Assembly: GCF_900109375.1 (NCBI RefSeq)
Contig: NZ_FOAB01000004.1
Span: 124,001-188,000, forward strand
Length of the DNA stretch: 64,000 nucleotides
Direction: 5' to 3'
From: Aquimarina amphilecti
GTDB lineage: Bacteria > Bacteroidota > Bacteroidia > Flavobacteriales > Flavobacteriaceae
In this document: one piece after another, positions 35,421-52,655 of the stretch
Numbering within the stretch: the stretch's first letter is position 1
How the letters are laid out: each line of letters opens with the position of its first letter
Program-made: the position numbers and the translations under genes
The notes under the pieces: generated by a model
Told to the model about the DNA's origin: nothing
Databases searched by the model: none
Seen by the model: the letters and a program-made list of their open reading frames with translations, nothing else

Positions 35421-35628
35421 GCTTTTTCAGGTTTTTTTTCAATGAATTTTATTGATATTTCGCAAGTATTTTACGGTATAACCATATTTTTTAAAAATAT
35501 TTTTTTATTCTTAAAGTATTGATTTTACTGGTTTTTTGAGTAAGATATTATCGGGATATGCTCTGTTATGAAAAAATTATGAAAAAGTTGTCGTAAATTA
35601 GGAAGTATAATTATTTAGTAATAATTGT

Positions 35629-37140
35629 GTGGCTAACTCAAAAAAAAATATAAAAATATCTTTACTGGGTATCTTTATTTTATTCTCTATTACTTCCACT
35701 GTATATAGTTTTGGAAATAATAAGATAATAGATAAGGAGAGCAATTCTTTATATATCCAGGAAAAGTTCGATACTAAAGAACAATACCAATCGGTTATTG
35801 ATAGATATCTTAATGCCTTAGAAGAAAAACGTTCAGATTCCTTATCTGTATTTCAGAAATTAGCTTTTACCTATTCTGAAATGAAAGAACCTGAATTAGC
35901 GGTTCAGTATATCAATAGATATGTGAAAGCAAGTTTAGATATTTCTTTTGTTGGTCATAGTTTCTTTGATAATATTAGTGATTCTGAACCTTATGAATTA
36001 TTAGCAAATAAATATTTAAAAAAAGTTGATTTATGGTCAATTTTTTGTTTGTATACTGGTTTTATTGGTTTTTTTGTAGCTCTTGTGTTAAACCTTAGAA
36101 AGCGTTCTGATAAAGTTGCTAATCTTTTAATGAGCTTTTTTGTTTTACTGCATTCCTTTTTTATTCTCCATATTTGCGCATTATTGACAAATTATCAATA
36201 TTACTTTTCTGATAGTCTATATATATCCACGTCGTTTTCATTTCTATATGGTCCATTGATTTATTTTTATTTTAAAAGAGTAATAAATAAGTATGTTTTT
36301 AGGAATATCGACCTTTTGCATTTAGTTCCGACATTATTATTGATTGTATTCTTATTATTACCGGTTTATTTTTTGTCAGCAGAAGAAAAACTAAAAATGA
36401 TGTTAAATGGTACTGTCCCACATGGTACCTTAATTACAATTGTGAAATTAATATCACTTATAGTTTATGGTGGTTTGGTACTAGTAATTTATATAAAATC
36501 TATAAAGAGTAAGAAACCTGTTTTACGTATGCAATCTATCTGGCAAAGAAATATTGTAATTTTTTGTTCTTTATATATAGTTACCTATAGTATTTATGCT
36601 TTTTTAATTATTTCAAAAATTTACAGTGGTATTCTATTTAATACGCAAGTTGGTTTAATGGCTTTTTTAGTATTGTATGTTAGTTATACCGCTTTTGTTC
36701 AACCGAGTATTTTTGGAGGCTTAAAAGTAATTAAGACTAAACCAAAAAATAAAGTGCCAGTTCCTAAGTATGTTAAATCAGGATTAACGGAAGGCTTGTC
36801 AGTAGAGTTAAAGGAAAAATTATTATACTTATTAAATGAAGAAAAAATTTATAAGCAAAATAATATAACACTTCAAGTACTTTCGGAGTTAATGGATACT
36901 ACAAGGCATAATACTTCGCAAATTATAAATGAGCATTTTAATTTGAACTTCTTTGAGTTAATAAATAAATATAGAATCGAAGAAGCAAAAGAACTTTTAA
37001 AAGGTGAAAAACATAAGAACTTTAATATTATTGATATCGCTTATGAGGTTGGATTTAATAATAAAGTAACCTTTAATAAATCTTTCAAAAAATATAATCA
37101 AGTAACACCTTCTGAATACCTAAAATCATTAGTAGCTTGA
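35629..37140 (+). CDS. Membrane-spanning AraC-type transcriptional regulator 1 of the PUL
   Basis: This 503-residue regulator starts at GTG; no in-frame ATG lies between the upstream stop at 35608 and the signal sequence. Order: signal peptide (about 9-27), a TPR-like helical segment (about 45-135, EKFDTKEQYQSVIDRYLNALEEK), seven membrane helices (about 138-360, from LWSIFCLYTGFIGFF to LMAFLVLYVSYTAFV), then a cytoplasmic AraC HTH_18 domain (about 395-500, with RHNTSQIINEHFNLNFFELINKYRIEEAKELL and IIDIAYEVGFNNKVTFNKSFKKY). It resembles a SusR-type sensor and is about half identical to the gene at 37627. The start region carries an inverted copy of the leader box seen before the SusC genes. 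Confidence 0.9.
   Translation: MANSKKNIKISLLGIFILFSITSTVYSFGNNKIIDKESNSLYIQEKFDTKEQYQSVIDRYLNALEEKRSDSLSVFQKLAFTYSEMKEPELAVQYINRYVKASLDISFVGHSFFDNISDSEPYELLANKYLKKVDLWSIFCLYTGFIGFFVALVLNLRKRSDKVANLLMSFFVLLHSFFILHICALLTNYQYYFSDSLYISTSFSFLYGPLIYFYFKRVINKYVFRNIDLLHLVPTLLLIVFLLLPVYFLSAEEKLKMMLNGTVPHGTLITIVKLISLIVYGGLVLVIYIKSIKSKKPVLRMQSIWQRNIVIFCSLYIVTYSIYAFLIISKIYSGILFNTQVGLMAFLVLYVSYTAFVQPSIFGGLKVIKTKPKNKVPVPKYVKSGLTEGLSVELKEKLLYLLNEEKIYKQNNITLQVLSELMDTTRHNTSQIINEHFNLNFFELINKYRIEEAKELLKGEKHKNFNIIDIAYEVGFNNKVTFNKSFKKYNQVTPSEYLKSLVA
35630..35642 (-). repeat. Inverted copy of the TTGAGTTAGCC box at the start of regulator 1
   Basis: TGGCTAACTCAAA is the exact reverse complement of TTTGAGTTAGCCA at 37315-37327, and its first 11 core bases also match the box at 44525. 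It overlaps the GTG start and the first codons of the regulator gene. Confidence 0.6.
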
Positions 37141-37195
37141 TGCATATGTGTTTTAGTAAACATTCTTCGGAATAAAGTAAATCTTTTTCGGTAAA

Positions 37196-37218
37196 GGTAA
37201 ACCTTGATAAGGGTTACC
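37196..37218 (+). promoter_or_regulatory. PUL leader dyad, copy 1 (GGTAA-N13-TTACC)
   Basis: A 23-bp dyad with half-sites GGTAA and TTACC at both ends and inner arms ACCTT and AAGGG. Copies 2 and 3 have the same length, half-site spacing and flank (TCGGtAA just upstream), which marks it as a likely operator. Confidence 0.7.
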
Positions 37219-37314
37219 CGACTTTATATTTTCTATCACTTCTTTTACATTGTAATCATAAATAGGATGTGCATTTTCTATATAGACTTTGTTCAAGTTT
37301 TGTGAAATTTAATA

Positions 37315-37327
37315 TTTGAGTTAGCCA
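37315..37327 (+). promoter_or_regulatory. TTGAGTTAGCC leader box, copy 1 (orphan)
   Basis: TTTGAGTTAGCCA lies 120 bp after the start of dyad copy 1. It is shared with leaders 2 and 3, and is perfectly complementary over 13 bases to the start region of regulator 1. Confidence 0.6.
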
Positions 37328-37453
37328 TCAAAATATTAGTGCCATCCTCTTGTGATTGCATTGTTTTTAAACAATTGCAATAGTTACTTTTTCAATTCAT
37401 AATTTGTTAATTAACATTTTATTAAAACTATTAATTAACAAATTATTTGGTTT

Positions 37454-37626: not shown

Positions 37627-39150
37627 ATGCGGCAAACTCAACTAAACGTAAAATCTGCTTGTTTTCAGATATTCTTATTTTGTTTTCTTTATAGTGCAAG
37701 TTTACTAGGAAAGAATAATAAAGTAGTTTTAGAGGTAAATTTTATTTCAGACACTATTAGTGTTTTGAGTAAAGCGAATACACTTTTTAATCAAAGAAAA
37801 TATGATAAAGCAATTTCTGAATACAAAGCTTTACTAGACAATAATTATAGGGATTCCACCTATTTATATAAAAGACTGGCTTTTTCTTATGCTAAGTCTA
37901 ATCAACCTAATATGGCAAGTGTCTTTATAGAAAAGTACATTTTGAAGACTCTTGATGTTTCATTTGTTAATCATAGCTACTTTGATCCGATTAAAAAAAA
38001 TGATAGTTTCAAAATATTACAGAAAAAGTATCAACGAAAAATTAATGTGTGGGCTTTGTTTTGTTTATATGTTGGATTTATAGGTGTTTTTATTTCTACT
38101 ATTTTAATATTTAAACCAGCTAAGGACCGAATTGCTAATCTTTTAATAGGCTGTTTTCTATTATTACATTCTTTTTTTATTCTTAGAATTAGCATTCTGA
38201 TTACTAATTATGAGTTTTATTTACCGCATTCATTATATGTGTCTGCATCTTTTTCTTTTTTATATGGGCCGTTTATTTATTTCTATTTTAAAAGAATTGA
38301 TCAGGAATATCAACTTAAAAAAGGAGATATAATACATTTATTACCTACGGTTTTGTTTCTTGTTTTTATGATACCTATTTATTCTTTGTCTGGAGATGAG
38401 AAATTGTACATGATTGTTCATAACGCACGTCCTTATACTATTTTAATAATGTTAGCTAAACTAGTTTCCTTAATAATTTATGGTTCTTTGTTAATGGTTA
38501 AATATTTAGGTAAAATAAAATTAGATGAGACTTTTAATAGATCAGAAAAAAATTGGCGAAGAAACTTGATAGTTTTTTATAGTCTTTATACCATGTTTTA
38601 TGGTACTTACGCATTTGTATTTAGAAAATATGAGTTGGGTAGTTTACTTTTTAATCTTCAAATTTTTCTGATGACTTTATTGGTCTTGTATGTGAGTTAT
38701 AATACATTTTTTAACCTAGCACTTGTTAGAGATAAGAAATGGAAAACTGTAAGTATAGATAAATTGGATGCGTATAAATATAGCTCTTCAAGTTTAACAT
38801 CAGAATTATCTATTGAATTAAAAGATAAATTGGTAGATCTAATGGATGAAAGAAAAGTATATAGAGATAATGATATTACTTTACAAAAGATTGCAGATCT
38901 TTTAAATACGAATAGACATAATACCTCACAGATTATAAATGAGCATTTTGGACTTAATTTCTTTGATTTAATTAATTCATATCGGATTAATGAAGCTATG
39001 TCTATTTTAAAAAATAACAAATCTGGGGTTGTTAACATTATTGATGTTGCTTATGAAGTTGGATTTAATAATAAAGTTACTTTTAATAAATCTTTCAAAA
39101 AGTATAATCAAATTACTCCATCAGAATATTTAAGAAGTTTTAGTATTTAA
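37627..39150 (+). CDS. Membrane-spanning AraC-type transcriptional regulator 2 of the PUL
   Basis: This 507-residue paralog of the gene at 35629 has the same layout: signal peptide (about 10-28), TPR-like segment (about 45-140, NTLFNQRKYDKAISEYKALLDNN), seven membrane helices (about 143-365, INVWALFCLYVGFIG onward) and a C-terminal HTH_18 domain (about 400-505, RHNTSQIINEHFGLNFFDLINSYRINEAMSIL and IIDVAYEVGFNNKVTFNKSFKKY). The DNA-recognition helices are nearly identical to regulator 1, so both may bind the same site, while the outer segments differ and may sense different glycans. It sits just before leader 2 and the first SusC/SusD pair. Confidence 0.9.
   Translation: MRQTQLNVKSACFQIFLFCFLYSASLLGKNNKVVLEVNFISDTISVLSKANTLFNQRKYDKAISEYKALLDNNYRDSTYLYKRLAFSYAKSNQPNMASVFIEKYILKTLDVSFVNHSYFDPIKKNDSFKILQKKYQRKINVWALFCLYVGFIGVFISTILIFKPAKDRIANLLIGCFLLLHSFFILRISILITNYEFYLPHSLYVSASFSFLYGPFIYFYFKRIDQEYQLKKGDIIHLLPTVLFLVFMIPIYSLSGDEKLYMIVHNARPYTILIMLAKLVSLIIYGSLLMVKYLGKIKLDETFNRSEKNWRRNLIVFYSLYTMFYGTYAFVFRKYELGSLLFNLQIFLMTLLVLYVSYNTFFNLALVRDKKWKTVSIDKLDAYKYSSSSLTSELSIELKDKLVDLMDERKVYRDNDITLQKIADLLNTNRHNTSQIINEHFGLNFFDLINSYRINEAMSILKNNKSGVVNIIDVAYEVGFNNKVTFNKSFKKYNQITPSEYLRSFSI
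37631..37641 (-). repeat. Inverted copy of the leader box at the start of regulator 2
   Basis: GGCAAACTCAA matches regulator 1's GGCTAACTCAA at 10 of 11 bases, but in a different codon frame relative to the start codon, so conservation is at DNA or RNA level and not protein level. Confidence 0.5.
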
Positions 39151-39284
39151 CTAAAAGACTCCTCAGTTTTAATTTTTTATTCCTCAAAATTATAGATGTA
39201 AAATACTATGATTTTTGATTTCTGTTAAAATCAAACCTTTATATGCGAAAGGTAGGTAAAGAAGTAAAATTTCATCGGTAAAAG

Positions 39285-39307
39285 GGTAAAGCTTGATCAG
39301 TTTTAAC
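39285..39307 (+). promoter_or_regulatory. PUL leader dyad, copy 2 (GGTAA-N13-TTAAC)
   Basis: 23-bp element with half-sites GGTAA and TTAAC; the right half-site differs at one base from copies 1 and 3. It follows TCGGTAAAAG and lies 212 bp before the SusC ATG. Confidence 0.65.
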
Positions 39308-39416
39308 TCTTTGAAGCCCTATAATCAGTTGTTTTGTCAAAAATTGCTGGAAAGAGAAATAGAGTTTTTTTATCTACAGAGTACATTGTACATTTTATAA
39401 AAAGTCAATAGATAAA

Positions 39417-39427
39417 TTGAATTAGCC
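39417..39427 (+). promoter_or_regulatory. TTGAATTAGCC leader box, copy 2
   Basis: One base differs from copies 1 and 3. It lies 132 bp after the dyad start and 80 bp before the ATG. The TTG with a downstream TATTCTCTTT could also be read as a -33/-7 promoter pair. Confidence 0.55.
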
Positions 39428-39482
39428 ATCATTACCAATATTCTCTTTCTCTTTTCGCAATTTCTAACTGAGGTTTAATTTT

Positions 39483-39500
39483 ATGAAATTTAATTTATGA
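39483..39500 (+). other. Five-codon mini-ORF overlapping the SusC start
   Basis: An ATG at 39483 opens a five-codon frame, MKFNL, whose TGA at 39498-39500 overlaps the SusC ATG at 39497 as ATGA. It may be a start decoy or a coupling device; a real function is unproven. Confidence 0.3.
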
Positions 39501-42500
39501 AACAAATTAATTACAAATTACTGTTGTTTGTGTTTTTTGTATCCAGTATTTCTTTTGCGCAACAAAAGAAAATTACTGGTACAGTTACAGATGACAATGG
39601 ATTACCTTTGCCAGGGGTTAACATCATTGTTAAAAATACTTCCGAAGGTACTCAAACTGATTTTGATGGAAATTATAGCATTGCTGCTTCATCCGGAGCG
39701 GTTCTAACTTATAGTTATGTTGGTTTTGAAACAAAAGAATTAGTAGTAGGAAATAGAAATAATATTAATGTTAGCCTACTAGTGTCTAGAGCAACTTTAG
39801 AAGAAGTTGTAGTTGTTGGTTTTGGAGAACGAGCGAGGAAATCTCTATCAACTTCTATTGCTACGGTCGAAGTAGATGATATTGTTAATATTGCTACACC
39901 AACTGTTTCTGGTGCCTTACAAGGAACCGTTACAGGTCTACAGGTAAATCAAAATTCAGGAACACCTGGAGCTGGTTTTTCAGTTAGGATTCGGGGAGCT
40001 AGTTCTATTCAGGGTTCTAATGAACCTTTGTACGTCTTGGATGGAGTACCTTTATTAAATGGTACACCTGGTGGGGGTAACTTTGGAGGTCAAGATAACG
40101 ATATTTTATCATCATTGAATTTTTCAGATATTGAATCTATTCAGGTCTTAAAAGATGCTTCTGCTACAGCGATTTATGGATCTAGAGCGGCAAATGGAGT
40201 AGTTTTAATTACAACTAAGAGAGGGAAAACAGGAAAACTTAAAGTAGAAATTAATTCTTATTTAGGGTTTCAAGATGCTATAGAAAGATTTGACCCAGCA
40301 CCATTAGGAGAATCCCTTAGATATGCAGATATAGCTTGGGATGAAGCAATAGGTGTTCCTTCAGGTACTGGATTGTTTTCTACAGGAGGTATTCTAGGGT
40401 TTAACTTTTTAGATGCTAGCGGATTGACAACTCTAGATGAATTATACGCTTCAGATTCTGATGTAAACTATGTAGATGAAATATATAGATCGGAGGCCGT
40501 TGTTAGGCAAACAGATATAAGTTTATCTGGAGGAAGTGAAAATGCAAGATACTTTTTGCAGTATTCCGATTTTAATCAAGAAGGAGTTATAATAAATCAA
40601 GATTTTGCTAGAAGAACACTTAGGCTTAATGTTGATTTTAAAGCAAGTAAATCTATTGATATTGACGCTGGAATTTCAATTTCTGAAACAGATGTTTCGA
40701 GAATTAATTCAGATAATAATATTTTTGGAGCTTTGACAACATCTTTATTGGAATATCCAGGACTTCCATTAAGAGATGAATTTGGGGAACTTACGCGAGA
40801 CAATTTTTTGTTTTCTAATCCTATTCAAAATGCATTGTTAGAAAGTTCTGATGAGGTTTCTTTGCGATATATTACTAATCTTGGATTGAGAGTTAAATTA
40901 TTAGAAGGTCTATCATTATACTCTAAAATAAATTTAGAAAGATTAGATTTTAGACAAGATCGTTTCTTCCCGGCTGAAACAGCACAAGGAGCAGGTGCAA
41001 ATGGAGATGCATTTACATTCCAGAATTTATTTACAAATTGGGTGTCTAATACTACACTTAATTATAATAAAAAGTTTGGAGATTGGGGATTAACAGCTTT
41101 AGCCGGTTTTTCTTTTGAAGGTAGTGATACAAATCAAACTACTATAAATACACAAAATTTTCCTGAAGGATTTAATCAGCCAGCAAATGGATCAACTTTA
41201 ATACAGGCTGATAATTTTAATACAGAAAGAAGACTATTCTCTTATCTGTCTAGATTAGGTGGTTCTTATCAGGATAAAATATTTATAGAAGGTACATTAA
41301 GAGCAGATGCTTCATCTGTTTTTGGACAAGGAAATCAAATAGGTTATTTCCCAGCGGTTTCTGCAGCCTATATTATCTCTGAAGATTTCCAAAGTGAAGC
41401 AATAACGAACCTTAAAGCTCGCGTATCATGGGGGCAGCAAGGAAATCAATCTGGTTTAGGGAATTTTGCCTCTAGAGGATTAGTAGGAGCTGTTAATGTA
41501 GCTGATGTTCCAGGTACTTCGATTGTTCAAGTTGAAAACCCTAATTTAAAATGGGAGATTACAACACAAACTAATTTTGGACTCGATGTATCATTATTTA
41601 ATAAAATAAATCTTACTTATGATTATTATATTAAGAATACTACAGATCTATTGTTAAATAGAACATTTAGAAACTCTACAGGTTTCCTTGCGATTACAGA
41701 TAATATTGGTTCTATAGAAAACATTGGACATGAAATAGGTCTTAGTGCTGATATAGTTCGTAATGATTCATTTAGTTGGAATTCTCAGGTTAACTTGACT
41801 TTTAATAAGAATGAAGTAACTGCATTGGTTCGGGATGCAAATGGTGATTTCTTACCGATTGATAGTGGTTTTGCGTCTAGAGTATCTGTAGGGCAATCAT
41901 TGGGATCATTTTTTGGTTTGGTGTTTGACGGTATTTATGGACCTGGTGATGAAATCCCAGCAGCTTTACAAGCTAGAGGAGTTTCAGAAGGAGATGTTAG
42001 ATATGTAGATGTTAATGGAGATGGTAACATCACTCCAGATGATAGACAATTTATAGGAGATCCAAATCCTGAATTGATTGGGAATTTTAGAAATTCAATT
42101 ACTTATAAAGGCTTTGATTTAGCGGCCAATGTACAATTTGAATTGGGTAAGGATATCTATAATAATTCCCTCGCTTTTGCAGGGCCAGGAAGTAGAACTA
42201 TCTTTGGTAAAACTAGAGAAGGTATATCAGATTATTATACAGCGGATAATACAGATGCTACACAACCACGACCAAGAGAAGGATCGTTACAAGTTTTTAA
42301 TGCACAAGATTCTAGTCAGTATGTTGAAGAAGGAGATTATGTAAGGTTGAAAGAAGTTGTTTTAGGATACACCTTTAATACTACTTTGTTAGGAGTTAAA
42401 AATACTTCACTAAGGATATATGTAGGAGGAGATAACTTATTAACCTTTACGGATTATTCTGGTCTTGATCCAGAAGTAAATACTTTTGGTAGCGATAATG

Positions 42501-42574
42501 TTTCAAGAGGGACAGATTTCTTTACCCAAGGATTAAATAAAACATACAAGTTTGGAATAAACTTAAAATTTTAA
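39497..42574 (+). CDS. SusC-like TonB-dependent outer-membrane transporter 1
   Basis: This 1025-residue SusC/RagA-type transporter has signal peptide MKQINYKLLLFVFFVSSISFA and a CarboxypepD_reg-like domain (24-100, KKITGTVTDDNGLPLPGVNIIVKNTSEGTQTDFDGNYSI). A TonB-box-like stretch EEVVVVGFG is followed by the plug (about 115-235, VRIRGASSIQGSNEPLYVLDGVPLL and SIQVLKDASATAIYGSRAANGVVLITTKRG). The barrel ends in KYFGINLKF-like residues (TYKFGINLKF). It imports oligosaccharides with its SusD partner, encoded 5 bp downstream. Leader 2 with dyad and box lies upstream. An alpha-glucan cargo is inferred from the neighbouring amylase. Confidence 0.94.
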   Translation: MKQINYKLLLFVFFVSSISFAQQKKITGTVTDDNGLPLPGVNIIVKNTSEGTQTDFDGNYSIAASSGAVLTYSYVGFETKELVVGNRNNINVSLLVSRATLEEVVVVGFGERARKSLSTSIATVEVDDIVNIATPTVSGALQGTVTGLQVNQNSGTPGAGFSVRIRGASSIQGSNEPLYVLDGVPLLNGTPGGGNFGGQDNDILSSLNFSDIESIQVLKDASATAIYGSRAANGVVLITTKRGKTGKLKVEINSYLGFQDAIERFDPAPLGESLRYADIAWDEAIGVPSGTGLFSTGGILGFNFLDASGLTTLDELYASDSDVNYVDEIYRSEAVVRQTDISLSGGSENARYFLQYSDFNQEGVIINQDFARRTLRLNVDFKASKSIDIDAGISISETDVSRINSDNNIFGALTTSLLEYPGLPLRDEFGELTRDNFLFSNPIQNALLESSDEVSLRYITNLGLRVKLLEGLSLYSKINLERLDFRQDRFFPAETAQGAGANGDAFTFQNLFTNWVSNTTLNYNKKFGDWGLTALAGFSFEGSDTNQTTINTQNFPEGFNQPANGSTLIQADNFNTERRLFSYLSRLGGSYQDKIFIEGTLRADASSVFGQGNQIGYFPAVSAAYIISEDFQSEAITNLKARVSWGQQGNQSGLGNFASRGLVGAVNVADVPGTSIVQVENPNLKWEITTQTNFGLDVSLFNKINLTYDYYIKNTTDLLLNRTFRNSTGFLAITDNIGSIENIGHEIGLSADIVRNDSFSWNSQVNLTFNKNEVTALVRDANGDFLPIDSGFASRVSVGQSLGSFFGLVFDGIYGPGDEIPAALQARGVSEGDVRYVDVNGDGNITPDDRQFIGDPNPELIGNFRNSITYKGFDLAANVQFELGKDIYNNSLAFAGPGSRTIFGKTREGISDYYTADNTDATQPRPREGSLQVFNAQDSSQYVEEGDYVRLKEVVLGYTFNTTLLGVKNTSLRIYVGGDNLLTFTDYSGLDPEVNTFGSDNVSRGTDFFTQGLNKTYKFGINLKF

Positions 42575-42579
42575 ATCAG

Positions 42580-43971
42580 ATGATTATGAAGAATAAATTT
42601 TATATATCAACATTTTTGATATCATTTTTGATATGTATGTCTTGTGCAGATGAATTTGTTGATACTGAATCAGAAAACAATGTTCAAGGAGTCGATAACC
42701 AAATAGTAGATGCTTCTACAGCTGAAGATGCACTAGTTGGAATGTATAATGATCTACAAGATGCTGATTTGTATAGTGGAACTATGAACTATTATTTAGG
42801 AATGTGGGCTGATGAACAAGTGCACTCAGGTTCTTTTCCAGCATTTAGTCAAATATTCGGTAATGATCCGGATTCCGAGAATATTAACAATAACAATATG
42901 TGGGATGCATTTTACAATACGATTTTTGCAGCCAATAACTTAATTAAAGTTGTTAATACAGATTTACAAGCAATAACAGAAGATGATGTGGCACGTATTA
43001 CAGGACAAGCTTATGGTATAAGAGCTTTAATGTATTTTAATTTAGTGCGCATATACGGTCCAGTACCTTTAGACTTAGAAGCCAATCAAATATCAGGTGA
43101 TTTAGACGCTGCGTCTTCTTTACCAAGATTCTCTGAACAAGATGTGTATGATCAAATAAATAGTGATTTATTACAATGTATTTCCTTATTGGATGGAATC
43201 TTGGATAGAAGTGTAGATCGATTCAGTCGTGATGCGGCAAGAACACTACAAGCTCAAGTGGCATTACAGCTTGATGATTTGGTAACAGCGCAAACTGCAC
43301 TAGAGTCTTTATTAAATGCGGGTTATGGATTAGCAACAAATGTAAGTGACTTATATGGAGGAGCAAATAGTGGATTAGTCCTTTCTCCAATAGAAACTAT
43401 TTTTGGAATACCGTATTCAGCTACAGACGGAAGTACTATTGCATTCTTCTTTTCGGATCAACCAGATGGAGGAAGAGATGAGGTTAGATTTTCAGGATCT
43501 CTTTCTGCAGCTTTCGAACCTGGTGATGAAAGAGCTGGTTCATTAGTAAACCCATCTTCTGGGATTTCTAGAATAAGTAAATATACTCAAGCAGGTACTG
43601 GAGATGATGACGTTTATGTCTTTAGGTATGCAGATGTTTTATTAATGCTGGCAGAAGTATATGCTAAACAAGATGATGCTAGAGCATCAGGTTTAATAAA
43701 TCAAGTTAGGGATAGAGCTGGTTTGCCAGATGTCTTGTTGGATTCAGGAAATGTTAATACTTTAATTCCACGAGAAAGGTTCGTAGAGTTTTTTGCGGAA
43801 AGTGGTGACAGGTATCATACTTTAAAACGTTTTGATTTATTGGATGTAGTTGTTCAGAATAAAGGTAATGCAGTGTTTATTGCAGAGAGAAATAACCTTT
43901 TTCCAATCCCACAAAATGAATTAGATAATAATACAGCGTTATCAGGGAGTGATCAGAATGCTGGATATTAA
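42580..43971 (+). CDS. SusD-like RagB/SusD nutrient-binding lipoprotein 1
   Basis: This 463-residue surface lipoprotein has signal peptide and lipobox FLICMSC (Cys near residue 22), then ADEFVDTESENNVQG. Typical SusD helices follow (AEDALVGMYNDLQDADLYS, GQAYGIRALMYFNLVRIYGPVPLDLE near 145-170), with the C-terminal RVRDRAGLPDVLL and RFVEFFAESGDRYHTLKRFDLLDVV and PIPQNELDNN motifs. It caps the SusC transporter and binds the glycan at the cell surface. It is shorter than most SusD proteins. Another ATG at 42586 would drop two residues and is equally possible. A strong terminator follows. Confidence 0.92.
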   Translation: MIMKNKFYISTFLISFLICMSCADEFVDTESENNVQGVDNQIVDASTAEDALVGMYNDLQDADLYSGTMNYYLGMWADEQVHSGSFPAFSQIFGNDPDSENINNNNMWDAFYNTIFAANNLIKVVNTDLQAITEDDVARITGQAYGIRALMYFNLVRIYGPVPLDLEANQISGDLDAASSLPRFSEQDVYDQINSDLLQCISLLDGILDRSVDRFSRDAARTLQAQVALQLDDLVTAQTALESLLNAGYGLATNVSDLYGGANSGLVLSPIETIFGIPYSATDGSTIAFFFSDQPDGGRDEVRFSGSLSAAFEPGDERAGSLVNPSSGISRISKYTQAGTGDDDVYVFRYADVLLMLAEVYAKQDDARASGLINQVRDRAGLPDVLLDSGNVNTLIPRERFVEFFAESGDRYHTLKRFDLLDVVVQNKGNAVFIAERNNLFPIPQNELDNNTALSGSDQNAGY

Positions 43972-44053: not shown

Positions 44054-44395
44054 ACTTACCCTAAGCAAAACGCATTATTTTATAGTTCTGGTCTATAATT
44101 AAATAGAAAGGAATATAATACTTAAAGTTATCGATTCTAGTTTATTTAGGAATCTAGATAGAACTTTTTTGTAGTAAATTCAATATCATATTTTATAATC
44201 AGGATTATATGTTTTATAGAAAATATACAGCTTTGTAATAAAATTAATAAGGGGAATTTTATTTATTTTTTTGATATTAAGAAAGCTTTCTTAACTTTTT
44301 TAGATTCTTCTCGAAATACTTAGTATGATAGTATAGTAGGTTCGCATTCTCTTAAAATACAGCCTTTAGTTACGTTGGGAAATTTTTATCGGCAA

Positions 44396-44418
44396 GGTAA
44401 ATGTTTATAGGCTTTACC
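44396..44418 (+). promoter_or_regulatory. PUL leader dyad, copy 3 (GGTAA-N13-TTACC)
   Basis: 23-bp element with AGGTAAA and TTTACCT arms, the best symmetry of the three copies, preceded by TCGGCA. It lies 210 bp before the SusC2 ATG. Confidence 0.7.
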
Positions 44419-44524
44419 TATTTTTTTTACTTCTATAACTTCCTTTACAACTCAATCATTAAAAGAACGGGCAAGAGATTACCAGTAATAATCGTGTAGT
44501 TTATTCATATTGGTGATGTTATTA

Positions 44525-44535
44525 TTGAGTTAGCC
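44525..44535 (+). promoter_or_regulatory. TTGAGTTAGCC leader box, copy 3
   Basis: Identical over 11 bases to the orphan box in leader 1. It lies 129 bp after the dyad start and 81 bp before the SusC2 ATG. A near-consensus TACTCTTG lies just after it, so the box may include the -33 TTG of a promoter. Confidence 0.6.
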
Positions 44536-44605
44536 TTCAATATACTCTTGCCTCCTTTTATGTTATCAGTAAATATTGGAGTATAAATCTTGAAAAATTT
44601 CACTT

Positions 44606-47600
44606 ATGAAAGTAAATCATTACAAACTATTGATACTCGTTTTTTTTATATCGAGTATTGCGTTAGCGCAGCAAAGATCTATATCTGGAACTGTAACAGA
44701 TAGTAACGGATTACCTATACCGGGAGTTAATGTAATTATTAAGAATACTAATCGAGGAACGCAAACAGATTTTGATGGCGTTTATTCGGTAGAAGCTGCG
44801 AATGGAGAAATTATCATGTATTCTTTTCTTGGGTATGTTTCACAAGAAATAAGCATTACTAGTCAAAACAAGATCGATGTTATTCTTAAAGAAGATGTGA
44901 GTGCTTTAGAAGAAGTTGTAGTAGTTGGGTTTGGTACACAATCCCGACGGAAAATTACTGCTAATATTGCTTCTATCTCTTCAGATAAAATTAATGAAAT
45001 ACCAACACCAAGTTTACAAAGTACCTTGACAGGTAAAGCTGCAGGTGTACAAGTAACACAATTAAATGGTAAAGTCGAAGGAGGAGTAAAGGTAAGAGTG
45101 AGAGGGATATCAACAATTTCTTCTTCTCAAGAACCTTTATATGTGGTGGATGGTATTCCTATAACTAATTCTGATGAGTCAATTAATGATTCGCCTATAA
45201 ACCCCTTAATAGCATTAAATCCTAATGATATAGAATCTATTGACATCTTAAAAGATGCTTCTTCTGCCGCCATTTATGGAGCAAGAGGTACAAATGGAGT
45301 TATCATTATTACAACTAAACAGGGAAAACAAGGAAAGACAAAGGTGTCGCTTAATTCTTCCTATGGAATAAGTAGTGCTACTAATACTAGAGATTGGCTT
45401 AATGCTGAACAGTATGTGGAATTGGTTACAGAGTCTGCTTTAAATGTTGGATTTACTCAAGCAGGAATAGAAGGACAGTTTGATTTCTATGCAAATGGAT
45501 TAGACTGGAGAAATGGAGATGTAGATACAGATTGGCAAGAATTAGCGTTGGTAGATGGATCAGTACAAGATTTTGGGGTATCGGTTTCTGGAGGAAGTGA
45601 AAAAACAAGGTTTTTTATGTCTACGGCCTATAATAATACAGATGGTATTGTACGCGGGAATCAACTAGAAAGATATTCTTTTAGAACAAACATAGATCAT
45701 ACACTCTCAGAAAAATTCAGAGTAGGAACTAATTCAAGTGTTTCGAAATCTATAATTGATAGAATTTCTAACGATAATGCTTTTGCAACACCATTGCAAG
45801 CTATTGCACAAACACCTTTGTCACCAGCTTATTTGGCAGATGGTGTAACTCCCAACAATGAGTCTACAGAGTATTACAATTTTTTAACAGATGAATTTAA
45901 TGGAAACTTTAAAACTAATATTTGGCGAGTATTAGCGAATGTCTATGCAGAGTACAAAATTTTACCTGAATTAAGTTTTAGATCAGAAATTGGATATGAT
46001 TTCTTATCTCAAGTTGCAGAGCGTTTTTCAGGAAGTTTAACAGAATCAGCTTCTGTAGGAGGTTTTGGTACTGCTAATGCTGTCCAGACGGAAAAATATA
46101 ACTTGAATAATTATCTCACATATACTAAAAGATTTAACGAGATTTTTGATTTTGAAACTACACTAGGTATGAGTTATGAAGATAGTCAAAGAAGATTGCA
46201 GTTCGCTCAAGGTCAGGGATTTCCTTCAGATGATTTGCAGACATTAAATAGTGCAGCAGAAATTACTGCGGGGGGATCGAGTCGTACAAGATTTAATTTT
46301 CTCTCTTACTTTGGTAGAACTACATTTTCAATTGCCGATAAATATTTATTCAATGCTAGTTTACGATATGATGGTTCTTCGCGATTTGGAGACGAAAATA
46401 GATTCGGATGGTTTCCAGCGGCATCGGTAGGTTGGATAGTTTCAGAAGAATCATTTCTTAATAGTTCAGAGGTAGTTTCATTACTAAAACTGAGAGGTAG
46501 TTGGGGAATAACTGGTAATGCTGGTATAGGAAATTTTGCTAGTTTAAGTTTATTTCAGGGAACTCCATATAACCAAAGAGCAGGATTGGCTCCTACTCAG
46601 TTAGGAAATCCAGCATTAAAATGGGAAAAAACAACTCAAGTAGATATAGGATTAGACTTTGGTTTTTTAAATAATAGAATTTCAGGAGAAATTGATTATT
46701 ATGTAAAAGACACAGATGATCTTTTATTAAACGAGCCTGTTCCAGGAACTTCAGGTTTCCCAAACATTACTAGGAATGTTGGTGAAATGAAGAACAGAGG
46801 ATTTGAATTTATTATTAATACAAAAAATATTGTTTCTGCAGATGGTAGTTGGAGTACATCACTAAATCTTTCAACTATCGATAATGAGGTAACTAAATTA
46901 CCTGGCGGAGATATTATTGCAGGTAGAAATATTGTTAGAGAAGGAGAAACAGTTTCTTCATTTTACGTAGTAGAATTTGCAGGAGCTGACCCAGCTAATG
47001 GAGATGCTTTATTTATAAGAAATACTGTAAACGCAGATGGTACTATTGATAGGAGTACTACCAATAATTTTAATGAGGCTGATAGGATTATTGCAGGTAG
47101 CCCATATCCGGATTTTATAGCAGGGCTTACTAACAATATATCTTATAAAGGAATTGATTTTGCATTTACTTTTCAAGGAGAATGGGGTGCTTCATTATAT
47201 AATAATGGAGGAAGGTTTCAATCTGGAAATGCAAGATTCTTTGACAATCAAACAACTGATCAATTAAGAAGGTGGCAACAACCAGGTGATATTACAGATG
47301 TACCACAAGCTAGATTGTTTGCAACAAATGGACAACAAGCTTCTACCAGGTATCTCCAAGAATCTGATTTTATAAGATTAAGAAACTTGACTTTGGGGTA
47401 TACCATACCACAGGATGTAACAAAGAAATTTTATATGGAACGTGTAAGAATTTATTTTACAGGATTCAATCTGTTGACTTTTACGGATTATGATGGTTAT
47501 GATCCAGAATCTACTGCAGATTTTAACGGAGATTCTAACATTCAGGTTGGAGAGACTTTTTATTCTGCGCCTCCTGCTAAAACATATACTCTAGGTATAA

Positions 47601-47614
47601 ATATTGATTTTTAA
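44606..47614 (+). CDS. SusC-like TonB-dependent outer-membrane transporter 2
   Basis: This 1002-residue SusC/RagA transporter has signal peptide [22 protein letters not shown] and a CarboxypepD_reg-like domain (24-100, [39 protein letters not shown]). [11 protein letters not shown] is followed by the plug ([54 protein letters not shown]), and the 22-strand barrel ends in [10 protein letters not shown]. It is a paralog of the gene at 39497, with closely similar signal and regulatory domains but a clearly different barrel, so it may take a different chain length or linkage. It is followed by its own SusD gene after 12 bp. Confidence 0.94.
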   Translation: [1002 protein letters not shown]

Positions 47615-47626
47615 AAACGTATTGAT

Positions 47627-48988
47627 ATGAAAACATTAAAATATATAAAATTTATAGTAATTGTATTAGCGATCTCTTTTATAGGGTGTGAAGACAATCT
47701 TGAGTTAGCACCAGAACAAAGTCTGTTACCAGAGGTGGCAACATCCAATCCAGCTAATTTACAAAACATATTAACTGGTATTTATGATGAAGCAGGACAA
47801 ACTGTTTCTTATGGAGGACAAATAAATCTGGCATCAGAATTACTTGGAAATGATACAGATCTTTCTTGGAATGGAACCTTTGAGCAACCAGCCCAATTAA
47901 TAGAAAAACAATTAGTACCAGATAATACATTTGTAAGAGATTATTGGTTAAATGCTTATGAGGTTAATAATCAAGCTAATATTGTCTTAGCAAACTTAGA
48001 TGTATTTGAAGATGAATCTGAAAGAAATAGGGTAGAAGGAGAGGCTAAGTTTCTTCGCGCTCTTGTTTATTTTGATCTAGCCCGATTATTTGGTCAGTCA
48101 TATAATGTAGGAGGAGGGAACTCTCAGCTTGCTGCTCCTATTGTACTTGAAGCTATACTAAATCCTAGTGATATTACTTCTCCTTCTAGAAGTTCTGTGG
48201 AAGATGTGTATAGTCAGGTAATTTCAGATCTTCTAAGTGCTTATAGTTTACTCCCTGATTCTAATGGAGTATTTGCTGATAAGTATGCTGCACAAGCATT
48301 ATTAGCAAGAGTATATTTACAACAAGGTAATTTTGCTGGGGCTAGAGATGCAGCTAATGATGTTCTACAAAATAGTGGTCATTCTCTAACTGCAACTTAT
48401 GATGCAGCATTTAATAACGATGGTAATTCTAGTGAGGATATTTTTGCTTGGCAAATTACTAGTCAGGATGGTGTGAATCAGATGAATACTTTTTGGGCTG
48501 GTCAAGCTTTTGGAGGTAGATCAGGAAATCCTGATGTGTCAGTGAACAGTTCTTTCTTTGATATTTTTGATGATGCTAATGATGATCGATCCCAATTTTT
48601 TTATACTACTTCTGGTGGAACCGCTACTACTAAATGGCAATCTCAGTTTGCTAATATTCCATTTTTACGTATCGCAGAAATGCATTTAATAAGGGCTGAA
48701 GCCAATTTTAGATTAACAACAGCAATAGGCTTAGATCCTTTGGCTGAAATAAACGCACTGAGGAGTAGATCAAATGCAGTAGCACTGGGTTCAATTACTT
48801 TGCAGGATGTAATTGATGAGCGCATACGAGAATTGTCGTTCGAAGGTTTTGGTTTGCACGATATCAAGAGATTAGAGGGAACAGTTGGTCCGCTGAATTA
48901 TGATGATGACTTTTTGGTGCTGCCAGTTCCACAAAGAGAAAGAGATGCAAATCCAAATTTAATGCAAAATCAAGGATATGGGAGTTAA
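47627..48988 (+). CDS. SusD-like RagB/SusD nutrient-binding lipoprotein 2
   Basis: This 453-residue surface lipoprotein has signal peptide with lipobox AISFIGC (Cys near 21) followed by EDNLELAPEQSL. SusD helices are visible as NLQNILTGIYDEAGQTVSYGG, EGEAKFLRALVYFDLARLFGQSYN near 140-165 and DKYAAQALLARVYLQQGNFAGARDAANDVL. The C-terminus has FLRIAEMHLIRAEANFRL, INALRSRSNAVAL, DERIRELSFEGFGLHDIKRLEG and LPVPQRERDANPNLMQNQGY. It is the partner of SusC2 (12-bp gap). It differs from SusD1 in most of its binding face. Confidence 0.93.
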   Translation: MKTLKYIKFIVIVLAISFIGCEDNLELAPEQSLLPEVATSNPANLQNILTGIYDEAGQTVSYGGQINLASELLGNDTDLSWNGTFEQPAQLIEKQLVPDNTFVRDYWLNAYEVNNQANIVLANLDVFEDESERNRVEGEAKFLRALVYFDLARLFGQSYNVGGGNSQLAAPIVLEAILNPSDITSPSRSSVEDVYSQVISDLLSAYSLLPDSNGVFADKYAAQALLARVYLQQGNFAGARDAANDVLQNSGHSLTATYDAAFNNDGNSSEDIFAWQITSQDGVNQMNTFWAGQAFGGRSGNPDVSVNSSFFDIFDDANDDRSQFFYTTSGGTATTKWQSQFANIPFLRIAEMHLIRAEANFRLTTAIGLDPLAEINALRSRSNAVALGSITLQDVIDERIRELSFEGFGLHDIKRLEGTVGPLNYDDDFLVLPVPQRERDANPNLMQNQGYGS

Positions 48989-49211: not shown

Positions 49212-52200
49212 TTACCTTTTTAAAATCTTCCTAGTAGAAGATTTGCCGTCTACTGTAATTTTACAGAAATAAATACCACTTGCTAAGGATCTTTCTCCAA
49301 GTCTGTATTGGTGCAGTCCTTGATTTACTTTTGTATTGATAATAGTTTGGGATGCCCCATATAGATTAATAAATTCTATTCTAACATGACTTTTATCTTT
49401 GACGATTTCTAGTTGTAATATTGAGTTTTCTGTTATAGGATTTGGAAAAACTTTAATATTACTAAAGGTTTCATCTTTTATGGTAGTATCTTTTAATCTT
49501 ATCGTATCAGGGTTTTGATCGTACCAAGTTCCATTGTAATACCATCCATCTTGACAGCGATTAAGATCAGAAGTTTGAGAAGCTCCACTATTACTGAAAA
49601 TAAAATTAGAACAAGAAGTATTTGATAATGTATATTGATACCAGCCATTTGTATCCAAGGTCATATATTCTCCAGGCCAAGTAGTCGTAGTTCCTGGTGC
49701 TTCTGTGCTCCAAAAATAAATAGTAGGAGCTGTATATGAGTCAGATTTAAAATACACAGTTAAGTCCTGATTTTCTTCAGGTTTACGATCATACCAAGTT
49801 CCATTGTAATACCATCCGTCTCCACATCTTTGAAGATCTAATGTTTGCGACGCACCATTGTTACTAAAAATTATATTAGTGCAATTAATGCCTTCAAGTT
49901 TGAAAGAATACCATCCATCACCTAAGTTAGTCATGCTAGTGCCTGGCCATGAAATTGTAATGTCAATTGGGGTTGTATTCCAGTAATAAATATTTGGATT
50001 AGCTAATGGTCCTTTATAATATATAGTCATTGAATCGGATGTCCCTTCTGAGAAAGTAAATGAATTACTTATAACTTGTGACGGTAATCCTTCAGCATCA
50101 TAGGCAATAGCTCTTATTGTGATATCTGATGTGATAGCTATTGGAGAAGTATACCTATTCGAAGAAGTAGAAGGTTCATCACCATTAAGTGTATAATAAA
50201 TTTCTATTCCTTGAGGGTTGTTATCTGTGGCGCTTAATGATATATTAACAGTTTCATCGATAATAAATGATCCGCCATTTGGTGATATTGATATTGTTGG
50301 AGGAGTGTTTTCTGTTATTCTTGGATCAGTGTCATACCATACGCCATTATCAAACCACCCATCACTATTCCTACTTAAATCATCAGTTTTAGCACCGCCA
50401 TTATCGTTAAATAATAAGTTAGTACTTTGTACTCCTTCAAAAATATATTCATACCATTCTGAGTTGTCGATCTGATTCATTTGCGGTCCTGGCCAATTAC
50501 TGGAAGGTAATATATCTGGGGATTCATTCCAATAATGCACATTTGCCTGTGACCATGAAGATGGTTTTTTAAAATAAACGTGTAACCCTTCTATTGGACC
50601 AATTCGATAGTTTTTTGTAATAATATCAGAAGCAGTACCATCTCTATCAAAAGCAATTGCCTTTATTATAGTGGACTGTGTAATAGTAAATGAATTAGTA
50701 TAAGCTATGCTAGAAGCACTAGGGTTTGATCCATCGGTTGTATAATAAATGCTGTAAGGAGCTCCTGCACCACCTATTCCGTCTATGATAACCTGAATAG
50801 GATCCTCAGAGTTTGTAGTGTTGGGGTTGATAACTACTACTGGATTGCTAGGACCATTTACACAGTTTTCAAAGAAACCACCTCCACAGCCTCCAATAAG
50901 TCCAGGTCCATTTAATACATAGATTCCTGCCGATCCAGAAGTTACTGAAAAATTTAGCACTCCATTTTGTGCTGCAATTTCACGACCAGTAACGGCATCT
51001 CTATATAAACCATTTGTCATACCGGAAATACTGAATGATGCGCCTCCGTCTTTTGCTAACCCAACTGCAACCTCATTATTTTGATGTACTCTGCGATAGG
51101 ATACAGCATTTCCTGGAGCTTCTTTCCAATCCCAACTTCCTTTTTGTAACGCTGGGACTGCTTTTCTTATAGCGTTTAGCTTTTTAATATGTTGGTATAT
51201 TTGATGATTAGAAGCTTGATCAATAACTTCTCCATAATAAGCCCTGCCAGTCTCATTAATAGATTTTTCAATTCCTGATGCATCATGGATATCATTAAAC
51301 TCTCCGGCTTTAAATCGCATTTCTGTTCCGTAATATACTGTAGGAATTCCTCGCCAAGTAAACATAAAGTTCATACAAGCAGCTAGATTTTCGTCGGAAC
51401 CACCATAACGTCTATTCCAGTCATTATTTGGTCCAAAATCATGATTGTCTAACCAAGTAACTAATGTTGATGGATCACTATATAGATTGTCATATCGAGC
51501 GGCAGCTTTTACAGTAGGAAAAGATTGTCCTTCTTCAAAAGTTCCATGAAAGGTAGCTTCTCCAAAGAAATCAATTACAGCTAGATCTAGAGGGGCCGAG
51601 TTATTAACTTCTCCTCTCCAAGTATAGTAATGTGGATTAGTTTCTTCTACAGGATGTAATTCGTGACGTTTTTGTGCTACTTCTCCAAAAATGAATAGAT
51701 CTGGATTGATAGCTTTAAAAGCATCATAAAAATATATAATATCCTCTCTACTCATATGTTTAACAGTATCCCAGCGAAAAGCGTCTACTCCCATATTAAT
51801 GTACGTTGAATAGGCATTTACGAGATAATCTCTAACAACCTGACTTCCTGTGTTAAGATCAGGTGTATCACCAGCTAAGGCTCTATTTTGTAAATTTTCT
51901 ACATCATCAAAACCTTGTGCAAAACCGTTTCCAGAATGATGATACCAATCTGGATTTGAAGTATCAACATAACTTTCTTTACCTGGAAAATTGTATGCTG
52001 ATAGGTCTTGATTATATGGTGGAGGCATCTTTTCTAGATTAGCTCTACTCCATATTAATCCATCTTCTGGATTGGGAGTTAATCCATCATACTCCCAGTT
52101 GGGATTGTCAGCAGCGTACCAGGGTTTTGTTGGATCTGTATTATATTTTATTTCGGCTACGTCTTTTATTCCGAAACGCCCTGCATGATTGGTTACCACA

Positions 52201-52655
52201 TCGAGAACTATTTTCATATCACGAGCGTGAATTTCATTTATCAAATCTTGGAATGTAGCTCCGGGAGATTCTAAACGCGGATCAACTTTCGTGAAATCCC
52301 ACGCATGATATCCATGATAATCTAAAGGGCTGCGGTTATGTACGATTGGAGTTATCCAGATAGCTGTAAATCCAAGGTCTTTGATGTAATCTAATTTCTG
52401 AATTAATCCTTTAAAATCTCCTTTCCAGGTTACATCATCTGGATCCGTAATTGTAGGGTTAATAGTTGGATCTGGATTGTAAGAAGACCATTCTGTTGGT
52501 GCATTATTGCTGGAGTCTCCATCAAAAAAGCGAGAAGTCATTAAAAAATAAATTGTTTCTTCTCTAAAGTCCGTCTGTGCAGTTAAAACATGAGAATTGA
52601 GAAATAAGCTCCATAGACATATAATGCCTAGAAGTTTAGGTAGTGAGTTTTTCAT
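49212..52655 (-). CDS. Secreted multi-domain alpha-amylase (GH13) with starch-binding-like modules and T9SS tail
   Basis: This 1147-residue protein has a signal peptide (1-27). A GH13 catalytic domain follows (about 28-590) with DVVTNHAG (152-159), nucleophile Asp296 in DAFRWDTVKHM, acid/base Glu325 in FGEVAQ and NHD at 404-406, so it should hydrolyse alpha-1,4-glucan. Next is a chitobiase/Fn3-like domain (about 600-683), a CBM26-like module (685-775, ending DGWFDNGVWYD), a second Fn3-like domain (780-868) and two more CBM26-like modules (870-950 and 955-1040, both ending DGWYYNGTWYD). A type A T9SS sorting domain (about 1065-1147, FPNPI start, KILKR end) completes it. It is exported to the surface or medium. 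It converges on SusD2. Confidence 0.95.
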   Translation of the reverse strand: MKNSLPKLLGIICLWSLFLNSHVLTAQTDFREETIYFLMTSRFFDGDSSNNAPTEWSSYNPDPTINPTITDPDDVTWKGDFKGLIQKLDYIKDLGFTAIWITPIVHNRSPLDYHGYHAWDFTKVDPRLESPGATFQDLINEIHARDMKIVLDVVTNHAGRFGIKDVAEIKYNTDPTKPWYAADNPNWEYDGLTPNPEDGLIWSRANLEKMPPPYNQDLSAYNFPGKESYVDTSNPDWYHHSGNGFAQGFDDVENLQNRALAGDTPDLNTGSQVVRDYLVNAYSTYINMGVDAFRWDTVKHMSREDIIYFYDAFKAINPDLFIFGEVAQKRHELHPVEETNPHYYTWRGEVNNSAPLDLAVIDFFGEATFHGTFEEGQSFPTVKAAARYDNLYSDPSTLVTWLDNHDFGPNNDWNRRYGGSDENLAACMNFMFTWRGIPTVYYGTEMRFKAGEFNDIHDASGIEKSINETGRAYYGEVIDQASNHQIYQHIKKLNAIRKAVPALQKGSWDWKEAPGNAVSYRRVHQNNEVAVGLAKDGGASFSISGMTNGLYRDAVTGREIAAQNGVLNFSVTSGSAGIYVLNGPGLIGGCGGGFFENCVNGPSNPVVVINPNTTNSEDPIQVIIDGIGGAGAPYSIYYTTDGSNPSASSIAYTNSFTITQSTIIKAIAFDRDGTASDIITKNYRIGPIEGLHVYFKKPSSWSQANVHYWNESPDILPSSNWPGPQMNQIDNSEWYEYIFEGVQSTNLLFNDNGGAKTDDLSRNSDGWFDNGVWYDTDPRITENTPPTISISPNGGSFIIDETVNISLSATDNNPQGIEIYYTLNGDEPSTSSNRYTSPIAITSDITIRAIAYDAEGLPSQVISNSFTFSEGTSDSMTIYYKGPLANPNIYYWNTTPIDITISWPGTSMTNLGDGWYSFKLEGINCTNIIFSNNGASQTLDLQRCGDGWYYNGTWYDRKPEENQDLTVYFKSDSYTAPTIYFWSTEAPGTTTTWPGEYMTLDTNGWYQYTLSNTSCSNFIFSNSGASQTSDLNRCQDGWYYNGTWYDQNPDTIRLKDTTIKDETFSNIKVFPNPITENSILQLEIVKDKSHVRIEFINLYGASQTIINTKVNQGLHQYRLGERSLASGIYFCKITVDGKSSTRKILKR
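49522..49817 (-). repeat. Near-identical DNA repeat within two starch-binding-like modules
   Basis: A 26-base stretch at 49522-49547 recurs exactly at 49792-49817, 270 bp apart. It encodes the WYYNGTWYD end of modules 2 and 3. This points to a recent duplication or gene conversion of a whole module of about 90 residues. Confidence 0.85.

Follow-up and report, generated by a model that had tools for sequence, protein, structure and literature searches.

A predicted structured RNA family beside AraC-type regulators in Flavobacteriaceae and the complementarity of its loop to the regulator start region

The window analysed here is a stretch of 64,000 nucleotides of the Aquimarina amphilecti genome (contig NZ_FOAB01000004.1, positions 124,001 to 188,000, forward strand). 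It contains two paralogous regulator genes followed by two SusC/SusD pairs, with a putative operator and a structured RNA behind regulator 1 and in front of each SusC gene. The features, in window coordinates, are the following.

35629..37140, plus strand: regulator 1, 503 aa, GTG start, C-terminal AraC helix-turn-helix (open reading frame; HTH_18, E 4e-15)
35630..35642, plus strand: target element that spans the regulator 1 start codon and complements box 1 in 13/13
37177..37211, plus strand: putative operator 1, direct repeat GTAAATCTTTTTCGG / GTAAACCTTGATAAG, spacing 20 (PWM 33.9, where 99% of shuffles score <6.8; exact pattern match)
37250..37361, plus strand: RNA1, structured RNA 3' of regulator 1 (CM R2 32.9 bits, best of 11 kb; folding z -5.6)
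37315..37330, plus strand: box 1, the P3 hairpin with its apical loop (TTTGAGTTAGCCATCA)
37627..39150, plus strand: regulator 2, a paralogue of regulator 1 (47% identity)
37631..37641, plus strand: target element of regulator 2, 10/11, a weak target
39264..39300, plus strand: putative operator 2 (PWM 30.7)
39338..39467, plus strand: RNA2, SusC leader, box 39417-39431 (CM R2 28.8 bits; z -4.6)
39497..42574, plus strand: SusC-type receptor (TonB plug, CarboxypepD_reg-like)
42580..43971, plus strand: SusD-type lipoprotein
44378..44411, plus strand: putative operator 3 (PWM 31.4; exact pattern match)
44450..44572, plus strand: RNA3, leader of the second SusC, box 44525-44539 (CM R2 31.6 bits; z -4.1)
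44606..47614, plus strand: second SusC-type receptor (TIGR04056, E 1e-256)
47627..48988, plus strand: second SusD-type lipoprotein (SusD model, E 7e-21, below cut-off)

The N-terminal part of regulator 1, which has no Pfam match, looks from its sequence like a TPR-like and membrane region. Convergent with the SusCD pairs lies a minus-strand gene (49212-52655) for a protein of the alpha-amylase type that carries three CBM26 stretches as well as a Por secretion tail, a neighbour that hints at a polysaccharide utilisation locus (PUL) for alpha-glucan.

According to the original prediction, the start of regulator 1 is perfectly complementary to a leader box over 13 bases, matches the box of the second SusC leader over 11, and recurs at the start of regulator 2 (10/11) in a shifted codon frame. 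All of this was confirmed. Bases 35630-35642 (TGGCTAACTCAAA) are the exact reverse complement of 37315-37327 (13/13), and a repeat search extends this inverted pair to 24 nt at 83%. The 11-base core agrees with the leader box of the second SusC at 44525-44535 in 11/11 and with that of the first at 39417-39427 in 10/11, and regulator 2 carries GGCAAACTCAA at 37631-37641 (10/11 to the core), in another codon register than regulator 1. Three mismatch-free copies of the box TTGARTTAGCCNTCA are present in the organism's own 5.3 Mb genome, all within this cluster. The pattern GGCTAAYTCAA has 16 genome copies versus 7 for a reversed control pattern, and four of the 16, the three boxes and the start of regulator 1, are in the cluster. 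The window holds 12 perfect 13-mer inverted pairs no more than 2.5 kb apart, versus 11.85 expected under a second-order Markov model; with at least 5 G+C there is 1 versus 0.95 expected (20 random sequences, largest 6). Since this count is at the chance level for 64 kb, the 13-base match by itself proves nothing, and it is the RNA context, the conservation in relatives and the covariation that give it meaning.

Homologues of regulator 1 at E <= 1e-80 are found in 61 of 299 family genomes, its own genome counted. After removal of duplicates, 67 regulators were examined; the duplicate loci L097, L098, L099 and L070 were left out, as were regulators in L001, L002 and L051 that were truncated at a locus end or counted double. 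The box occurs within ~900 nt downstream in 43/67 regulators, two boxes (L032 and L050) being added by hand, and box-like matches in L031, L052 and L094 were excluded as boxes from the start-region scan. A named set of 76 loci was taken from the best 80 of 397 relatives, among which the nearest homologue is that of Aquimarina latercula (88%); 31 of the 76 loci (L197-L227) are Aquimarina or Aquimarina-like. Where a SusC gene follows closely, the box is ~60-115 nt 5' of the SusC start. In other loci no SusC follows the element, or a gap of ~450-630 nt intervenes; a second operator-like sequence is frequent there. Absence from relatives had been named beforehand as grounds for rejecting the pairing, and the arrangement was found to be conserved.

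The box is part of a predicted structured RNA of ~110-150 nt, which takes the picture beyond the original prediction. The fold consists of a basal stem P1 and hairpins P2 and P3, with the box as the apical loop of P3 and UUGARUUAGYY as the loop core. When 44 elements were folded singly, a P1 of at least 10 pairs enclosed the box in 42, and in 32 the box formed the P3 hairpin with the UAG of the UUAG core in its loop; RNA2 of the window, whose minimum-energy fold lacks P3, is among the remainder. Because a MAFFT alignment of 40 elements was poor at the 5' stem, with only 5 pairs then given by RNAalifold, two class alignments were used. Alignment A2 (21 sequences, 29 pairs) has 83.5% of its cells paired versus 41-55% when slid by 1-3 columns, and alignment A3 (13 sequences, 26 pairs) has 83.4% versus 33-47%, a comparison in which both structures, derived from the same sequences, are hence favoured over the slid versions. 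The covariation score of A2 is 0.173 versus <=0.109 slid and 0.120 shuffled and was matched by 0/500 shuffles; that of A3 is 0.222 versus <=0.137 slid and 0.178 shuffled (3/500), and further pair types in A3 were not above the shuffles. An alignment of the Aquimarina elements, with its 5' arm misaligned, was left out of the pair counts.

A covariance model built without the window (CM R2) gave the three window elements as its top three matches (32.9, 31.6 and 28.8 bits; next 16.3) in a scan of 11 kb with filters off. At E <= 0.001, R2 matched 38/299 family genomes and a second model, R1, 22/299; in these filtered whole-genome scans neither model reported the window's own genome. A draw of genomes at the level of the order gave 1 match in 246. 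Run on 41 loci of the named set of 76, R2 yielded 40 matches at E values up to 1, of which 37 are on the strand of the regulator and the remaining 3 overlap plus-strand matches, and in 12 fetched loci a second RNA copy lies 5-8 kb 3' of the first. A comparison of 10 loci with Rfam release 15 gave no match at any E value up to 1, and 35-45 kb of the window gave only two snoRNA matches, far below the cut-offs and off the elements. As judged from these searches, the RNA family is one that recurs in Flavobacteriaceae beside homologous AraC-type regulators.

Several further properties of the elements were seen. Class B elements contain in their P2 loop a strongly conserved stretch, TAAACTTTGNTTT (e.g., L061:2739-2886, minus strand, alignment A2), which appears as AAACTTTGTT in many Aquimarina elements; perhaps it is a protein site or a second pairing site. 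In L031, on the minus strand and about 520 nt past the regulator stop, a stretch with a box precedes a hairpin of 10 bp (GACGGTCAGT/ACTGACCGTC) and a run of T, an arrangement that looks like a standalone sRNA with an intrinsic terminator. Members of the RNA family are present before SusC genes, too, where the cluster has a different regulator or none nearby (L160-L177), mostly without the operator. The conserved TTTG of the box prompted the idea of an internal promoter with TTTG as the -7 element, which was rejected: the TA of TAnnTTTG is not conserved in position, as judged by eye, and both arms of P1 covary.

The relation of the loop to the regulator was studied by searching each regulator, over the range between -150 and its stop codon, for the best complement of an 11-nt core of the loop. 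This complement falls within -60..+20 in 21/43 regulators (17 outright and 4 ties) where 4.9% are expected, a placement with a binomial probability of 1e-16, ties counted. In the other 22 of the 43 regulators with a nearby RNA it lies outside the start region, and many of these have the target in the SusC 5'UTR instead. A perfect CTAAYTC is present in -60..+20 of 20/43 regulators with a box versus 3/24 without one (Fisher p 0.007), and in 1.8% of random windows. The three regulators that have this perfect match but no nearby box (L036, L082 and L054) have an RNA elsewhere in the genome: for L036 and L082 it is downstream in the same cluster (loci L192 and L179), and for L054 it is on the same contig at a distance of ~1.1 Mb, its box GAATTAGCC standing against the regulator's GGCTAATTC. 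Outside Aquimarina, the target is mostly 15-40 nt 5' of the annotated first ATG, whereas in Aquimarina it is on the start codon.

Among the 31 Aquimarina-type loci, 25 have GGCTAAYTC at the regulator start. It is read as VANS in 7 and as (M/V/L)(R/W/G)L(T/I) in 17, the frame in L226 being ambiguous, and since a start-codon element is read in two frames it is the nucleotides and not the peptide that are conserved, as had been proposed from regulators 1 and 2 alone. The box was found downstream in 21 of the 31, and 18 have both target and box; a few of the counted boxes (second matches, L204, L216, L220) fall within a SusD-like coding sequence or give no fold, and in the downstream DNA examined of the other 10 no box was found. 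The Aquimarina regulators (L197-L223) often also have a conserved GTAAATTAG ~30-40 nt before the start (~35593-35603 in the window). Folding of the start of regulator 1 predicts weak pairing between the target's CTAA and the upstream TTAG of GTAAATTAG, possibly an alternative fold of the regulator start.

Pairing between cognate partners was then compared with reshuffled partners. The register was fixed by CTAAYTC, which anchored 33/45 loci, and the best RNA copy per locus was taken, L036 and L047 entering through second RNA copies; the 12/45 unanchored loci include L087 and L095, with the box CC and a target (GGCTATTC) lacking one base. Over 11 positions, cognate pairing was 305 versus 291.9 (sd 2.7) on reshuffling, and for the flanking dinucleotide 46 versus 34.9 (sd 2.5), with 0/10,000 reshuffles as good in both cases, counts that are not probabilities because the sequences are related and kinship is ignored. 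The single Y position of CTAAYTC had no cognate effect (3434/10,000 as good). On a quick tree of the 33 regulators, box CC and target GG take 4 changes each and are found in the same 5 rows, and sister loci differ in both: L048 (CC/GG) versus L066 (TC/GA), and L086/L096 (CC/GG) versus L090 (TC/GA). Independent tree pairs for CC/GG gave 3 concordant and 0 discordant (p 0.25, too few for significance); when a C in the box of any RNA copy is set against target G, there are 5 such pairs, averaging 4.4 concordant to 0.1 discordant, with a median p of 0.125. Compensatory changes are exemplified by L048 (TCGAATTAGCC/GGCTAATTCGA, with an additional compensated pair TCG/CGA), by the window itself (TTGAGTTAGCC/GGCTAACTCAA, where G-C stands in place of A-U, GAGTT/AACTC) and by L071 and L090 (TTGAATTAGTC/GACTAATTCAA). 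The predicted pairing of the loop with the regulator start is well supported, and the suggestion that the leader RNA pairs with this start is supported by a conserved RNA structure, the position in the start region, the antisense orientation and the compensatory changes.

Two observations stand beside this comparison. Many of the loci L182-L193 have a second RNA copy at the cluster end, mostly with its own operator and with no close SusC behind it, and the box of this copy (GAATTAGCT, e.g., L183:8597-8711) fits targets like AGCTAATTC better than the GAATTAGTC of the first copy. In L169 (5379-6718), an unusual box GAATTAGTA stands opposite TACTAA upstream of a different AraC-type regulator, possibly a further compensated pair, as seen by eye.

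Predicted duplex energies in the window separate the two regulators. The duplex of RNA1 with the regulator 1 start has -22.3 kcal/mol, reached by 0.04% of 5000 random windows, and that of RNA3 -20.6 kcal/mol (0.14%); RNA2 gives -14.8 kcal/mol. With regulator 2, RNA1 and RNA3 reach ~-14 kcal/mol, which 3.0% and 6.3% of random windows equal or better, and RNA2 -7.4 kcal/mol (67%). Values near -14 kcal/mol mean little, because duplexes of -14 to -16 kcal/mol are also predicted for RNA2 and RNA3 with the start regions of the unrelated genes mnmA and yidC. Part of the pairing stretch is occluded by the P3 hairpin. By these energies, regulator 1 would be a clear target and regulator 2 at most a weak one, and the predicted complementarity of the RNA to its activator's start region goes beyond chance for regulator 1 and weakly so for regulator 2.

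A putative operator was described by a matrix of two tandem half-sites with a spacing of 17-23, made from 16 seed loci of the same locus collection with the window excluded. It replaced a first regular expression that had found 20/44 in the first set and 9/49 in the second. The matrix score exceeds the 99th percentile of shuffles upstream of 59/81 distinct RNAs and the highest of 410 shuffles upstream of 49/81; with the seed loci left out, these are 43/65 and 34/65. All three RNAs of the window are preceded by such a direct repeat (33.9, 30.7 and 31.4), and in front of RNAs in clusters without a close regulator homologue it is mostly absent, a distribution that fits activation by the regulator. 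Just 5' of operator 1 is a third GTAAAC-type half-site (GTAAACATTCTTCGG, 37156-37170), with which operator 1 may be a triple repeat; similar GTAAA sequences are visible upstream in relatives.

In the reading that we consider probable, the regulator activates the cluster together with the RNA, and the RNA pairs with the start of the regulator mRNA and represses the regulator. The AraC-type regulator, probably membrane-anchored, would bind tandem GTAAANNTTNATCGG-like half-sites and switch on transcription of the RNA, either alone (RNA1) or as the leader of a SusC operon (RNA2 and RNA3). The RNA would fold into its basal stem and two hairpins, and the P3 loop (UUAGCC with the opened 5' side UUGAG) would pair with GGCUAACUCAA, the stretch of the regulator mRNA that spans its start codon. 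This duplex would block ribosome entry and so exert negative feedback on the activator, the level of which would be limited once the PUL is on. The RNA structure, its conservation, its antisense placement and the covarying pairing come from the computations above; operator binding by the regulator, transcription of the RNA, its action in trans and the repression are steps that we infer.

It is rather unlikely, though it deserves weighing, that the main action of the RNA is in cis, through pairing of the P3 loop with the downstream SusC 5'UTR in an H-type pseudoknot that controls SusC, with the element at the regulator as a decoy that frees SusC or as a secondary target. CTAAYTC occurs in 7/7 at -19..-37 of the SusC start in 28/50 RNA leaders directly before SusC, counted from 51 rows in which the first SusC leader of the window stood twice, versus 1.8% of random 80-nt windows, and SusC and regulator targets tend toward mutual exclusion (1/7 versus 14/21, p 0.029, from a table of 28 loci made by hand and uncorrected for kinship). 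The covariation with SusC is weak, however, with 95/5000 reshuffles as good for the flanks and 308/5000 for all positions, the SusC genes of the window have partial targets (6/7 and 5/7), and RNA copies without an adjacent SusC exist. By these matches SusC 5'UTRs can apparently carry the same target as the regulator start, which the original prediction did not include, and a cis pseudoknot on SusC is plausible in some lineages. A tentative possibility is that one loop serves two branches, a cis pseudoknot on the SusC start and trans pairing with the activator mRNA start, the target shifting between transporter and regulator in evolution and each PUL having its own feedback brake, addressed by the RNA through a locus-specific loop/target code.

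The sign of the regulation is left open by pairing as such, and the predicted CTAA/TTAG fold at the start could be opened by it; positive feedback, in which the mRNA is stabilised or the start opened and the regulator activated, is nevertheless improbable, as in the window and in the Aquimarina-type loci the start codon itself would lie within the duplex. An sRNA duplex over the start codon generally blocks initiation. Very improbable is the suggestion, raised along with the pairing, that one protein binds both the box and the start element as DNA. Such sites would co-vary between loci too, but there is a separate conserved, putative tandem operator of direct repeats upstream, the box is inside a structured RNA whose stems covary and which shares the strand of the regulator in 40/40 linked genomes, and the target shifts from the 5'UTR to the start codon yet remains antisense. 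A chance match, although the window should by chance hold about one such pair, is extremely unlikely in view of the conservation in relatives and the covariation seen there. DNA inversion of the regulator segment, to which inverted 13-mers at a distance of 1.7 kb had also pointed, is scarcely credible: regulator and linked RNA match are on one strand in 40/40 genomes (assemblies, compared by eye), no recombinase family was found among the 15 window proteins scanned, and the repeat is short and no more than chance would give.

Marine Flavobacteriaceae rank among the major degraders of polysaccharides, and the literature found on RNA control of polysaccharide utilisation loci is that on gut Bacteroides. 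A search of the open-licence PMC literature (preprints outside its scope) and of Rfam found no description of the RNA family. A conserved, apparently unlisted RNA family that links a PUL to its own activator would be a shared and directly testable brake, the covarying loop/target pair would aid the prediction of PUL regulation from sequence, and the family would supply natural orthogonal RNA pairs. Feedback-sRNA logic and RNA brakes on susC are already known; this RNA is undescribed in the literature covered, as far as the text available from those sources goes.

OmrA and OmrB, acting on ompR, are feedback sRNAs that repress their own activator. They and OppZ/CarZ have the same circuit logic as proposed for the RNA family here, an RNA made by the regulon that feeds back by base pairing. 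OppZ and CarZ are described as autoregulatory and as arising from 3'UTRs by RNase E cleavage (PMC7398697). The feedback sRNAs in the accounts available are from enterobacteria and Vibrio, whereas the RNA here can double as a SusC leader. In Bacteroides thetaiotaomicron, the bile-salt-induced sRNAs FopS and GibS, ~65-70 nt long with a 5' R1' seed, are described as pairing near the start codon of PUL mRNAs (susC) and blocking translation (PMC11697453). The likeness is that of a small RNA on a PUL start region with several copies per genome; the available account (PMC11697453) describes no link to a cognate AraC activator, whereas the RNA here would have the PUL's own regulator as its best target. 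The RNA here is also set apart, by description, in being ~110-150 nt, loop-seeded and a leader or embedded in the PUL. Another flavobacterial structured sRNA with a stem-loop seed is Rfp18 of Flavobacterium psychrophilum, likened here by description; its predicted targets are metalloproteases and an adhesin, and no link to a PUL regulator is described in the available text (PMC9723704). The antisense RNAs of Bacteroides PULs are likewise RNA brakes on a PUL, but in their available description (PMC10994844) they are divergently encoded and cis-antisense to PUL operons, whereas the RNA here is same-strand, short-seeded and structured. A cis-antisense PUL RNA lies on the opposite strand, and the elements of this family share their strand with the regulator and SusC.
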